NCBI RefSeq assembly: GCF_000763905.1
Contig: NZ_JRKN01000003.1
Coordinates: 1-64,000, forward strand
Reading direction: 5' to 3'
DNA length: 64,000 bases
Origin: Paracoccus halophilus
GTDB taxonomy: Bacteria > Pseudomonadota > Alphaproteobacteria > Rhodobacterales > Rhodobacteraceae
The notes under the pieces were generated by a model. That model did no database searches. It was not told the DNA's origin and worked only from the letters and a program-made list of their open reading frames with translations. Below are positions 41,232 through 50,040 of the stretch, piece by piece (position 1 is the first letter of the stretch; the number at the start of each line of letters is the position of its first letter). A program made the translations under genes and the position numbers.

Positions 41232-43157
41232 CTAGCGGTTGGCATCCTCGATCAGGCGGCGGTGGCGCCTTGCCTCGTCGCGGATCGCGCCCAGATCGGT
41301 CAGGCCCTTGGCCTGCAAGGCAGGGATCAGGCGCAGGAAGATCTGCGCCGTCGCCTCGGCATCGCCCATCGCGGTATGGCGCAGCTCGGGCGGGATGGTG
41401 ACGCCCAGACGCCCGGCCAGCGCGTCCAGCCCATGCGGCGCGGCCTGCCCCCAGACCATCGCCGACAGCAATATCGTGTCCAGCACCCGGTTGGGAAAGG
41501 CGACGCCGGTTTCCGTCGCGGCGGCGCGCAGCAGCCCCATGTCGAAAGGGGCGTTATGGGCGACCAGCACGGCATCCTCGGTGAAATGCTGGAATGCGCG
41601 CAGCGCCGCCGTCATGTCCGGCGCATCCGCCACCATCGCATCGGTGATCCCGTGGATCTGCGTCGAGCCGGGCGGGATCGGCCGGCCCGGATTGACCAAT
41701 GTCTGGAAGCGCTCGCCGGTCGGCTGCCCGGCCATGATGCGGATACCGGCGATCTGCACGATCCGGTCCGAGGGATCGAGCCCGGTGGTTTCCGTATCGA
41801 AGACCACGCAGGTCAGTTCGCCAAGCGCCTCGCCCGTGCCGGCAAGCTGCGGGCGATAGGTCAGCGAAGGCGCGATCTCGCAGGCGCTGGCACTGGCGGG
41901 AAGCGGCATCACGATGCACCCGCCGCCGGGTTGCGGCTCGGTCCAGAGCCCGGTGCCCAGCTCGGCCGCGATCGCCGCGCCGCTTTCGCCGGGACGGTCG
42001 GGATCGGGCGCATCCGCCAGCCATTCGTCAAGCCGCGCCATGTTCAGCGCCGCGCCCTGCCAGCTCAGGGTGATGCGTGCCTCGTCCCCGTCGCCGACGA
42101 TATCCAGCCGCGCGGGCCGGCCGCTGGCCGCCAGCCGTCGCGCCAGATCGCTGAACAGCACGGCCAGCGCGCCGCCATCCCCGGCCAGGCAAAGCGCGGC
42201 GATCTCGCCCCGCTCGGCCTCTTCGACCGAGGCGGCAAGCGCGGCGGCATCGACCTGCATCGGGGCCGGCGCGGGGTCCAGACCGCGCAAATCCGCGATC
42301 AGGGCGGCGCCCTCGTTATGGATCGCTCGGCCCACCTCGGGCGGCAGCGCGTCCTCGGCGGCCTCGAGCATCGGCACCAGCGCGGCGGCGTGGCGGCGCA
42401 GGCTTTCCAGCGCCTCGGCCCGGCGCAAGGTCGCGGGCGGGCGCAGCACCAGCACCCGCTCGCCCTCGCCGGCGGCGCGGATCTGGCCCGCCAGCCGCTG
42501 CCCGGCGGCGGTCAGCACGGTCAGTTCGGTGGCGCCGTTCGGGCTGGCGGCCAGTCGCCGCTCGGCCATGTCCAGCGCGGCGGGGCGCAGATGGCGCGAC
42601 AGCGGCTGGCCCAGAACCAGCCCGGGCAATGCCTCGCGCGCGGCGCCGTTGAAAAACATCACCCGGCCCCCGTCATCGGTCATCAACGCCACCGCGCTGA
42701 TGCCCGACAGCACCGATTCCAGCATGGCCTTTTCACGGTCCAGTTCCTGGACATGGCGCTGCACCGCCTCGGCCAGCGCCTCGGCGGATTGCGCGCGCGC
42801 CTCGGCCGCCTCGCGGGCGGCGGGGGCCAGATCGGCGAGATAGCGGCCCTCGTCCGCGTCGGGCGCGGCGCCGGTACGCAGGCCGCCGGCAAGGGTCTCG
42901 ATGGGGCGCGCGACGTTCTGGTCGAACAGGAACCAGACCCAGACCACCAGCGCCAGCGCGCCAAAAAAGCCGATGGCGCCGGCGCCGGCCAGCGCCGATA
43001 TGACGTGCGGCGCGATCTCGCCCGAAACTTCCGCGCCCGCCGCCTGCAACCGTCGCCACGCGACAAGCAGCGCCGCCGCCAGCACCGCCATCAGCCCGGC
43101 CGCCAGCCCCGCGAAGATCAGAAAGACCCGCAGCCGCAGCGACAGGCCGGTCAGCAT
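41232..43157 (-). CDS. Membrane HAMP/PAS/kinase-like protein fused to a DnaQ-type 3'-5' exonuclease
   Basis: The 641-aa protein has two membrane helices (about 10-34 and 52-78), a HAMP-like segment (80-95), a coiled linker and a PAS-like region (about 145-190). A degenerate kinase-like region follows (250-420) without an H-box, N-box or DxGxG. The C-terminal exonuclease domain (448-612) is intact: FDTETTGL (Asp454, Glu456), HNAPFD (Asp539) and H594…D599. Similar proteins are often labelled DNA polymerase III epsilon subunit, but the membrane anchor argues against replication. It is last in the row after a response regulator (7-bp overlap). The substrate is unknown. Confidence 0.85.
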   Translation of the reverse strand: MLTGLSLRLRVFLIFAGLAAGLMAVLAAALLVAWRRLQAAGAEVSGEIAPHVISALAGAGAIGFFGALALVVWVWFLFDQNVARPIETLAGGLRTGAAPDADEGRYLADLAPAAREAAEARAQSAEALAEAVQRHVQELDREKAMLESVLSGISAVALMTDDGGRVMFFNGAAREALPGLVLGQPLSRHLRPAALDMAERRLAASPNGATELTVLTAAGQRLAGQIRAAGEGERVLVLRPPATLRRAEALESLRRHAAALVPMLEAAEDALPPEVGRAIHNEGAALIADLRGLDPAPAPMQVDAAALAASVEEAERGEIAALCLAGDGGALAVLFSDLARRLAASGRPARLDIVGDGDEARITLSWQGAALNMARLDEWLADAPDPDRPGESGAAIAAELGTGLWTEPQPGGGCIVMPLPASASACEIAPSLTYRPQLAGTGEALGELTCVVFDTETTGLDPSDRIVQIAGIRIMAGQPTGERFQTLVNPGRPIPPGSTQIHGITDAMVADAPDMTAALRAFQHFTEDAVLVAHNAPFDMGLLRAAATETGVAFPNRVLDTILLSAMVWGQAAPHGLDALAGRLGVTIPPELRHTAMGDAEATAQIFLRLIPALQAKGLTDLGAIRDEARRHRRLIEDANR

Positions 43158-48084: not shown

Positions 48085-50040
48085 TCAGCCCCGGTTCATC
48101 CGGTTCTCGATCAACTCGTCCACGACACCCGGATCGGCGAGCGTCGAGATATCGCCCAGGGCGCCGTAATCGTTCTCGGCGATCTTGCGCAGGATGCGGC
48201 GCATGATCTTGCCCGAGCGCGTCTTGGGCAGGCCCGGCGCCCATTGGATCAGGTCCGGCTTGGCGATCGGGCCGATCTCGGTGCGGACCCAGGTCTCAAG
48301 CTCCTTGCGCAGGTCGTCGGTGGGATCGACATCGTTCATCAGCGTGACATAGGCATAGATGCCCTGCCCCTTGAGCGAATGCGGATAGCCGACCACGGCG
48401 GCCTCGGCGACCTTGGCATGGGCGACCAGCGCCGATTCCACCTCGGCCGTGCCCATGCGGTGGCCGCTGACATTGATCACGTCATCCACGCGCCCGGTGA
48501 TCCAGTAATAGCCGTCCTCGTCCCGGCGGCAGCCGTCGCCGCTGAAATAATAGCCCGGATATTGCTGGAAATAGGTCTCCATGAAACGCTCGTGATCGCC
48601 CCAGACGGTGCGCATCTGGCCCGGCCAGCTGTCGCCGATGCAGAGCACCCCCTCGACGCCGTTGCCTTCCATCACATTGCCGGTCTGCGCATCCAGCACC
48701 ACCGGCCTGACGCCAAAATAGGGCAGCGTGGCGGCGCCCGGCTTGGTCTCGATCGCGCCGGGCAGCGAGGTGATCATGTGGCCGCCCGTCTCGGTCTGCC
48801 ACCAGGTATCGACGATCGGGCATTTGCCCTTGCCGACATGCTTGTCATACCAGACCCAGGCCTCGGGGTTGATCGGCTCGCCGACCGTGCCCAGAACGCG
48901 CAGGCTGGACAGGTCGTGCTTTTCCACCCATTCCGTCCCCTGCCCCATCAGCGCGCGGATGGCGGTGGGCGCGGTGTAGAACTGGTTGACCTTGTGCTTT
49001 TCGCAGACCGCCCAGAACCGCCCGGCATCGGGCCAGGTCGGCACGCCCTCGAACATCAGCGTGGTGGCGCCATTGGCCAGCGGGCCATAGACGATATAGC
49101 TGTGGCCGGTGACCCAGCCGACATCCGCCGTGCACCAGAAGACATCGCCGTCGCGATAGTCGAAGACATGCTCATGGGTCATCGCGGCAAAGGCCAGATA
49201 GCCGCCGGTCGTGTGCACGACGCCCTTGGGCTTGCCCGTCGAGCCCGAGGTATACAGGATGAACAGCGGATCCTCGGCGTTCATCGGACGGGGCGGGCAA
49301 TCGGGGCTGACCTGATCCATCAGCGCCAGCACATCGACATCGCGGCCATCGACCCAGGTGGTCTGGTCGCCGGTATGCTTGACCACCAGGCAGCGCACCC
49401 GGTCGGAGCAATGCAGCAGCGCCGCGTCGGCATTGGATTTCAGCGCCGTGCGCCGGCCGCCGCGCGGCGCGGTATCGGCGGTGATGACCAGTTTCGCGCC
49501 GGAATCGTTGATCCGGTTGGCCAGAGCGTCGGGCGAGAAGCCGGCAAAGACGATGGAGTGGATCGCCCCGATCCGGGCGCAGGCCAGCATGGCATAGGCG
49601 GCCTCGGGGATCATCGGCAGATAGATCACCACCCGGTCGCCGCGCATCACGCCCTGGCTCAGCAGGACATTGGCCATCCGGTTCACCTTGTCGGACAGCT
49701 GCGCATAGGTGATGTGCCTGGCCGGGGTTTCGGGATCGTCGGGCTCGAAGATGATCGCGGTCTGGTTGGCGCGGGTCGGCAGATGCCGGTCCACGCAGTT
49801 CACGCAGGCGTTCAGCACCCCGTCCTCGAACCATTTGATCGAGACGCGGCCCATGGTGAAATCGGCGTTCTTGACCTTGGTATAGGGCTCGATCCAGTCG
49901 AGGCGCTTGCCCTCGCGCCCCCAGAAGGCCTCGGGATCGGAAATCGATTCGTCGTAAAGCCGCGCATAATCCGCAGGCCGGATATGCGCGGCGTCAAAGC
50001 CCGGCGGAATCGGATGTTTGGCAAGATTTTCAACGGACAT
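48085..50040 (-). CDS. acs: Acetate--CoA ligase (acetyl-CoA synthetase)
   Basis: Acs activates acetate with ATP and CoA via acetyl-AMP. The 651-aa protein has the N-terminal ACAS_N region, P-loop YTSGSTGKPKGVVHT, DTWWQTETGGHMI, the hinge YYWITGRVDDVINVSGHR and the C-terminal PKTRSGKIMRRILR. The Lys of SGKI is the residue controlled by acetylation in homologues. The length is standard. The upstream gap (50041-50284) is AT-rich and carries repeated TTTGTAA motifs. It heads the minus-strand row of symporter and signalling genes. Confidence 0.96.
   Translation of the reverse strand: MSVENLAKHPIPPGFDAAHIRPADYARLYDESISDPEAFWGREGKRLDWIEPYTKVKNADFTMGRVSIKWFEDGVLNACVNCVDRHLPTRANQTAIIFEPDDPETPARHITYAQLSDKVNRMANVLLSQGVMRGDRVVIYLPMIPEAAYAMLACARIGAIHSIVFAGFSPDALANRINDSGAKLVITADTAPRGGRRTALKSNADAALLHCSDRVRCLVVKHTGDQTTWVDGRDVDVLALMDQVSPDCPPRPMNAEDPLFILYTSGSTGKPKGVVHTTGGYLAFAAMTHEHVFDYRDGDVFWCTADVGWVTGHSYIVYGPLANGATTLMFEGVPTWPDAGRFWAVCEKHKVNQFYTAPTAIRALMGQGTEWVEKHDLSSLRVLGTVGEPINPEAWVWYDKHVGKGKCPIVDTWWQTETGGHMITSLPGAIETKPGAATLPYFGVRPVVLDAQTGNVMEGNGVEGVLCIGDSWPGQMRTVWGDHERFMETYFQQYPGYYFSGDGCRRDEDGYYWITGRVDDVINVSGHRMGTAEVESALVAHAKVAEAAVVGYPHSLKGQGIYAYVTLMNDVDPTDDLRKELETWVRTEIGPIAKPDLIQWAPGLPKTRSGKIMRRILRKIAENDYGALGDISTLADPGVVDELIENRMNRG

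Follow-up and report, generated by a model that had tools for sequence, protein, structure and literature searches.

An operon of Paracoccus halophilus joining acetate activation and symporter genes to a candidate nucleotidylation switch

We analyzed a stretch of 64,000 nucleotides from Paracoccus halophilus (contig NZ_JRKN01000003.1, positions 1 to 64,000; hereafter, the window). Seven genes on its minus strand, between positions 50040 and 41232, form an operon in the order acs, DUF4212, symporter, DUF294, membrane protein, receiver, and exonuclease hybrid. Possibly, the DUF294 protein attaches a nucleotide to the neighbouring symporter and the exonuclease takes it off again. The genes and their relevant parts are the following:

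48085-50040, minus strand: acs, acetyl-CoA synthetase (TIGR02188, 1015 bits)
47709-47966, minus strand: DUF4212, symporter small subunit (PF13937, 116.6 bits; TIGR03647, 110.7 bits, cut-off 26.05)
45897-47705, minus strand: SLC5-family symporter of the VC_2705 kind (TIGR03648, 815 bits, cut-off 320.75)
44028-45845, minus strand: cNMP-like/CBS/CBS/DUF294/DUF294_C protein, the proposed writer (Pfam; AlphaFold2 model and fold matches)
44583-44990, minus strand: predicted DUF294 nucleotidyltransferase catalytic domain of the writer
44052-44474, minus strand: DUF294_C helical domain of the writer
43522-44031, minus strand: 169-residue membrane protein, two transmembrane helices by eye
43151-43522, minus strand: lone receiver (PF00072, 89.2 bits)
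41232-43157, minus strand: hybrid of membrane anchor, PAS-like part, pseudo-kinase, and DEDDh exonuclease, the proposed eraser (RNase_T, 122.7 bits, residues 451-607)
41892-42425, minus strand: pseudo-kinase block of the hybrid (helical hairpin and ATPase-like part)
41337-41807, minus strand: predicted DEDDh exonuclease domain of the hybrid (D454, E456, D539, H594, D599)

An earlier account of the window, made from the letters alone (hereafter, the sequence-only reading), had described this gene content, the single direction, and overlaps among the last four genes. All seven genes were recovered where it had placed them. The overlaps, read in the sequence, amount to 4 nt between the DUF294 and membrane protein genes (ATGA), 1 nt between the membrane protein and receiver genes (TGATG), and 7 nt between the receiver and hybrid genes. 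The DUF4212 and symporter genes are separated by 3 nt, and both subunit models scored above their curated cut-offs. An assignment of the symporter to ActP was rejected, because the TIGR02711 score of 138.6 bits lies below the cut-off of 1099.25. Judging from the presence of acs, the substrate may be acetate or another monocarboxylate. The acs product carries a PKTRSGK motif at residue 605, which we take to be the acetylation site. The 169-residue membrane protein gave no family match in Pfam or NCBIfam. Homologues of it lie directly after the symporter gene in other Pseudomonadota (loci L140, L147, L157, and L162), and the protein may thus be a component of the pump and not of the signalling part.

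The linkage had been said to recur in other proteobacteria, and a co-occurrence analysis agreed with this. Among 190 genomes of the class, DUF4212 and a strong DUF294_C match were both present in 27, and within 12 kb of each other in 23 (Fisher's test of co-occurrence, 9e-15); DUF294_C matches weaker than E 1e-20 were dropped here, which kept 36 genomes as compared to 54 at E 1e-3. In a sample of 299 genomes from the phylum, which overlaps with that of the class, both were present in at least 66 genomes and within 12 kb in at least 54 (Fisher's test, 1.5e-22). DUF4212 occurred without a counted DUF294_C in 15 class genomes and 16 phylum genomes. We conclude that the clustering of DUF4212 and DUF294_C is not due to chance. 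A close set of loci, mostly Rhodobacterales by title, showed the recurring order acs, DUF4212, symporter, DUF294, membrane protein, receiver (in part of the loci), and exonuclease. Some loci lacked acs or DUF4212, often on short contigs. Since the close set consists of the 80 best among 570 or more matches, its uniform gene order reflects close relatives. A relative of the hybrid was found at E ≤1e-30 in 63 of 120 genomes of the family, and in many of them only the exonuclease part aligned.

The core of the arrangement is the pair of DUF294 and exonuclease genes. For 123 DUF294 open reading frames (ORFs) from 117 loci, covering 80 of the 81 chosen DUF294 places (G238 was left out), the exonuclease was fused in 10, lay within 1.5 kb in 99, and lay at 1.8-5.5 kb in 7. 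Thus, 109 of the 123 are fused to a DEDDh exonuclease or lie at most 1.5 kb from one. In the fusions, the exonuclease precedes the CBS pair and takes the place of the cNMP domain of the other copies. More than one DUF294 ORF was present within the examined loci in 18 of 93 genomes, often near different pumps. The catalytic residues of both enzymes, described below, are nearly invariant, and the chemistry therefore appears to be under selection. Two single cases are recorded here. One homologue of the window's DUF294 protein (P0168, 795 residues) runs in frame from the C-terminal part of a symporter into DUF294, which is either a fusion or an artefact of gene calling. Another locus (L163) holds a short DUF294 ORF with only the nucleotidyltransferase and DUF294_C matches, together with a receiver, an exonuclease hybrid, an SLC5 kinase, and a separate exonuclease.

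The DUF294 protein of the window carries a GSx10DxD motif at residues 340-354, which is kept in 80 of 80 close loci. Across 120 homologues, the G, S, and R residues are invariant, and each Asp of the DxD is present in 119. An AlphaFold2 model (mean predicted local distance difference test score, pLDDT, of 81) consists of a cNMP-like domain, the CBS pair, and the catalytic half. The best three VIA matches of this half were both halves of GlnE and the AMPylase DrrA, and no CD-NTase was found among the matches listed in the VIA and Foldseek searches. The modelled catalytic fold is accompanied by a helical domain, as expected of a GlnE-like protein nucleotidyltransferase. The predicted fold is closest to protein AMPylases. 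GlnE resembles the DUF294 protein in the predicted catalytic fold and the GSx10DxD motif, and it unites a writer and an eraser for one target, as is proposed for the pair; its N-terminal half removes AMP. It differs, however, in having two nucleotidyltransferase halves and glutamine synthetase as the target, whereas here one half is combined with a DEDDh exonuclease and the target would be another one. With one DUF294 domain in the chain, the window protein was not classified as GlnE proper.

The sequence-only reading had supposed that both the cNMP and the CBS domains could read the energy state, and these two parts fared differently. At the column aligned with the phosphate-binding Arg of CRP, the window protein has Ala; among the 80 close copies, 46 have Val, 21 have Ala, 13 have others, and none has Arg, although five of the 80 carry an Arg one position later. 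In a wider set, which aligned poorly, 21 of 76 cNMP copies have Arg at the CRP column. We therefore rejected the cNMP domain as a cyclic-nucleotide sensor, the phosphate-cassette Arg being absent from the window and all 80 close copies. Sensing of cAMP by the DUF294 protein is thus doubtful, and the CBS pair is the better candidate sensor. Both of its G-x-[VI]-T-x-x-D motifs are kept in the window protein, and AMP-bound AcuB was among its matches to solved structures.

The exonuclease domain of the hybrid contains all residues of the D-x-E, D, and H-x4-D motifs, by which it is predicted to be a DEDDh enzyme, and has a PolC/epsilon-like fold. By a strict pattern, all three motifs were present in 67 of 75 hybrids of the close set. 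It differs from the DnaQ/PolC exonucleases in being joined to membrane, PAS-like, and dead kinase parts, and no polymerase is encoded in the operon. The hybrid was modelled with moderate quality (mean pLDDT 75.7; predicted template modelling score, pTM, 0.40). In Foldseek, its middle part matched sensor kinases, WalK among them, at low TM-scores. In an alignment to SLC5 kinases that keep these elements, the H-box, the N-box, and the G-boxes of the middle part are lost, and HisKA and HATPase_c were absent from a Pfam scan of the window protein at E 0.01. The middle part was therefore rejected as a histidine kinase. One wider relative (L164) gave a weak HisKA match below the cut-off.

In the receiver, E8, D9, D52, T82, and K104 are intact, as they are in 46 of 46 receivers examined. 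Within the close set, the receiver was present in all 46 loci with the kinase-like block, the window included, and in none of the 29 loci lacking it; this count drops loci L216, L243, L244, L278, and L282, in which the hybrid exonuclease was not detected, and L237, which has a broken frame. Joint changes of receiver and block occur at two points of the DUF294 tree, one of them being the Paracoccus locus L224. With only two joint changes, a sign test falls short of significance (p 0.5) despite the complete match. In the wider set, a lone receiver adjoins 12 of 32 exonucleases with a kinase-like match, none of 73 stand-alone exonucleases, and 2 of the 10 fused copies. In the simplest interpretation, the receiver would dock onto the dead kinase block and thereby set the exonuclease.

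The window resembles the CrbS/CrbR system in that acs and a symporter are concerned, and long SLC5 ORFs often lie near the pair. CrbS/CrbR is, however, transcriptional, whereas the receiver of the window has no output domain and the operon encodes no kinase. An identity with CrbS/CrbR was rejected on account of the missing output domain and because the SLC5 kinase detected in this genome lies on another contig (C20). Long SLC5-domain ORFs (890-1181 residues, taken as SLC5 kinases) were found in all 16 genomes tested, whether or not these carry the pair or the receiver; the test comprised 15 genomes of the window's family and one of the class, with only the first 727 residues as the query. As such ORFs occur in every genome tested, none can be assigned as the kinase for the receiver. 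On contig C20 (24000-43500; locus L286), an SLC5-fused kinase was observed along with a kinase-like ORF and a response regulator. This SLC5-fused kinase shares 39% identity with the SLC5 kinase encoded within the corresponding operon of locus L118, from another genome of the same genus.

The sequence-only reading had restricted its proposed nucleotidyl switch to acetate transport, and this restriction did not hold. Of 96 DUF294-centred ORFs, 74 have an SLC5 protein or a BCCT transporter within 5 kb, namely VC_2705 (33), ActP (17), other SLC5 proteins (10), only an SLC5-fused kinase (8), or BCCT (6). Among ten SLC5 neighbours without DUF4212, nine scored above the ActP subfamily cut-off and one was of the PRK10484 type. 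BCCT genes lie at most 5 kb from seven pairs in seven genomes, as compared to an expected 0.50 (P 1e-6) over all genomes with an examined pair; a narrower expectation of 0.31 (P 4e-8) refers to a set of 23 genomes, selected in part for the absence of SLC5 or the presence of BCCT. Near pairs without SLC5 (96 of 106 picked ORFs, 26 loci), BCCT was the commonest family (six) and the others were scattered. Clustering of the neighbours raised the BCCT count to nine ORFs in seven loci, which was then confirmed, and among ten further neighbours, the single transporter was an ABC protein. A LeuT-type fold and coupling to sodium are common to SLC5 and BCCT proteins. The transporter labels were clustered on the DUF294 tree, with 40 changes as compared to 59.5 after shuffling (none of 200 shuffles gave so low a value), but change was still frequent. 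Locus L118 encodes acs, an ActP-like symporter, DUF294, an SLC5 kinase, a receiver, and an exonuclease hybrid; compared to the window, the pump differs and the enzymes stay. With VC_2705, ActP, other SLC5 proteins, and BCCT all among its companions, the pair goes with pumps and not with acetate in particular. The switch model of the sequence-only reading is partly supported, and it should cover several pump families instead of acetate transport alone.

A gene pair of this kind and its acetate regulon were known before in Pseudomonas; in P. aeruginosa PAO1, the pair is presumably PA3232-PA3233. As in the window, a CBS-domain gene and an RNase_T gene are paired in P. putida (pp_0354 and pp_0353) and in PAO1, within the MxtR/ErdR (CrbS/CrbR) regulon, but with a stand-alone exonuclease, ActP instead of a VC_2705 transporter, and no lone receiver described. 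In P. fluorescens, the DUF294-type gene Pflu5625 belongs to the CrbS/R regulon, and its deletion had a negligible effect on acetate; the protein is described with cAMP-binding, CBS, and nucleotidyltransferase domains, and the authors mention a predicted nucleotidylation (PMC5715377). In P. putida, ErdR binds the pp_0354 promoter, and pp_0354 is induced on acetate (PMC8402216). The genes pp_0354 and pp_0353 form one operon (PMC9927547). On 20 mM acetate, both are dispensable, whereas normal growth on pyruvate depends on pp_0353 and on actP-I but not on pp_0354; the pp_0353 defect was complemented (PMC9927547). Fitness data cited there indicate that actP-I and pp_0353 matter at 5 mM acetate, which the authors could not test (PMC9927547). 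Henriquez and co-workers speculate on mRNA decay by the nuclease (PMC9927547). Homologues of the pair adjoin actP and yjcH in PAO1 (PMC9927547). There, the PA3232-PA3235 cluster is up in growth on propionate, PA3233-PA3235 are down after propionate addition, and deletion of actP (PA3234) caused no defect on propionate (PMC9765439). In the available parts of these papers, no mechanism is printed beyond the predicted nucleotidylation and the speculation on mRNA decay.

We favour, at slightly below an even chance, the reading that the operon joins acs and the DUF4212/SLC5 symporter to a nucleotide-based switch. The DUF294 protein, with its GlnE-like predicted fold, would attach a nucleotide to the neighbouring symporter and turn the pump off, and the DEDDh exonuclease would remove the nucleotide and turn it on again. 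The modification would be a nucleotidylation, probably with AMP, carried by the symporter or its small subunit and inhibiting transport. Adenylates bound to the CBS pair may set the writer, and the phosphorylated receiver, docked on the dead kinase block, may set the eraser. Without the exonuclease, the pump would then stay switched off, as if the pump itself were missing, and without DUF294 it would remain on, which matches the P. putida pattern. Of the sequence-only reading, the conserved neighbourhood, a nucleotidyltransferase with an AMPylase-like predicted fold, and an exonuclease as the opposing enzyme are supported, and the published P. putida deletions have the expected signs. If the proposal is true, deleting pp_0354 in addition to pp_0353 should restore growth on pyruvate.

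Several observations weigh against this reading. A modified protein has not been seen so far. DEDDh enzymes normally cut nucleic acids, and we know of none that removes AMP from a protein; venom-type phosphodiesterase is able to take AMP off modified glutamine synthetase, which only shows that the chemistry is possible. In 7 of the 123 DUF294 ORFs, no exonuclease was seen in the stretch examined, two of them lying at most 1.1 kb from a contig end, and at least three exonuclease copies beside DUF294 are without DEDDh motifs (L112, which is cut short; L147; one of two in L170). A plain Foldseek search of the DUF294 model gave only CBS and cNMP matches among the best 50 listed, and the loop by the GS motif (residues 342-348) has a pLDDT below 50. 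For 22 of the 96 DUF294-centred ORFs, no SLC5 or BCCT gene lies within 5 kb. No column of the VC_2705 symporter held one residue in more than 80% of 58 sequences with the pair and in less than 40% of 14 without it; hence, we propose no modification site. The receiver accompanies only 12 of the 32 exonucleases with a kinase-like match outside the close set, which were scored by that match and not by the block itself. In P. putida KT2440, the pair lies near glcB and not near actP. The missing phenotype of the pp_0354 mutant also fits a dispensable gene, and the pp_0353 phenotype was seen on pyruvate and not on 20 mM acetate (PMC9927547). The sequence-only reading had named mutants without an acetate phenotype as grounds for giving up the switch; for 20 mM acetate this partly applies, but pp_0353 was needed on pyruvate (PMC9927547).

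Other explanations compete for the same observations. The DUF294 protein could make a small nucleotide signal that the exonuclease degrades, with the CBS pair, the cNMP domain, or the transporter as the receptor, similar to a CD-NTase with a Cap18-type exonuclease. We consider this unlikely, because the best three VIA matches covering the DUF294 half are GlnE and DrrA, because the cNMP Arg is absent from 80 of 80 close copies, and because a diffusible signal requires no adjacency to a transporter. No CD-NTase was among the matches listed, which still leaves room for one. Alternatively, the exonuclease might degrade transporter or tricarboxylic acid cycle mRNA, with DUF294 extending RNA at its 3' ends. 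The fold is shared by RNase T and other DEDDh enzymes that cut RNA, and mRNA decay by the nuclease was proposed by Henriquez and co-workers themselves (PMC9927547). This explanation appears quite improbable, as the GlnE-like look of the partner and the pairing with several pump families are left unexplained, and as losing the decay of transporter mRNA should raise transport, yet the mutant resembles one lacking actP-I (PMC9927547).

The pair could also modify Acs, an SLC5-type sensor kinase, or the receiver instead of the transporter. The gene acs comes first in the operon here and in many close loci, and lies at most 3.5 kb from DUF294 in 15 of 116 wider loci, but the other 101 have no acs within this distance. 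Acs has a switch of its own, lysine acetylation, and the motif for it is kept in the window. Long SLC5 ORFs occur on the same stretch as 26 of the 123 DUF294 ORFs; such ORFs were, however, found in 16 of 16 genomes tested, including some where DUF294_C was not found, and within 5 kb of six pairs there is a BCCT gene but none for SLC5. We give another target of this kind a decidedly small likelihood. Still more improbable is that these are merely co-regulated acetate genes with no common biochemical step, linked for joint transcription. Pflu5625 and actP are indeed CrbS/R targets (PMC5715377), and ErdR binds the PP_0354 and actP-I promoters (PMC8402216), but joint transcription is at odds with ten enzyme fusions, 99 further tight pairs, and pairs beside BCCT genes.

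The proposed reversible nucleotidylation of the symporter can be extended to a general, and in our view rather doubtful, proposal that bacteria switch SLC5 and BCCT pumps in this way, with a GlnE-like DUF294 enzyme as the writer and a DnaQ-type exonuclease, taken over from the metabolism of nucleic acids, as a protein de-nucleotidylase, and that the eraser of the Rhodobacterales is governed by a phosphorylated receiver docking on a built-in dead histidine kinase. Control of nutrient pumps is commonly attributed to transcription or to a bound regulator. If the proposal holds, the writer and eraser pair would represent a general post-translational switch across several pump families and a new enzyme class for protein de-AMPylation; it would explain the published, so far unexplained pyruvate phenotype of P. 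putida and give the DUF294 family a function. A literature search found no report of the off/on reading of writer and eraser, the fusions, the BCCT link, the comparison with the GlnE-like fold, or the receiver coupling, and found DUF4212 in no paper of the collection searched.

The genes flanking the operon were also inspected. On the other side of acs, a 764-residue protein with a pectate-lyase/epimerase-like stretch is encoded at 50809-53100 (minus strand), and its family is unrelated to the operon. Beyond the end of the operon lie cobalamin genes (CobS-type synthase, DBI phosphoribosyltransferase) and a gene for a family-5 solute-binding protein (37239-38958, minus strand; 39435-41216, plus strand).

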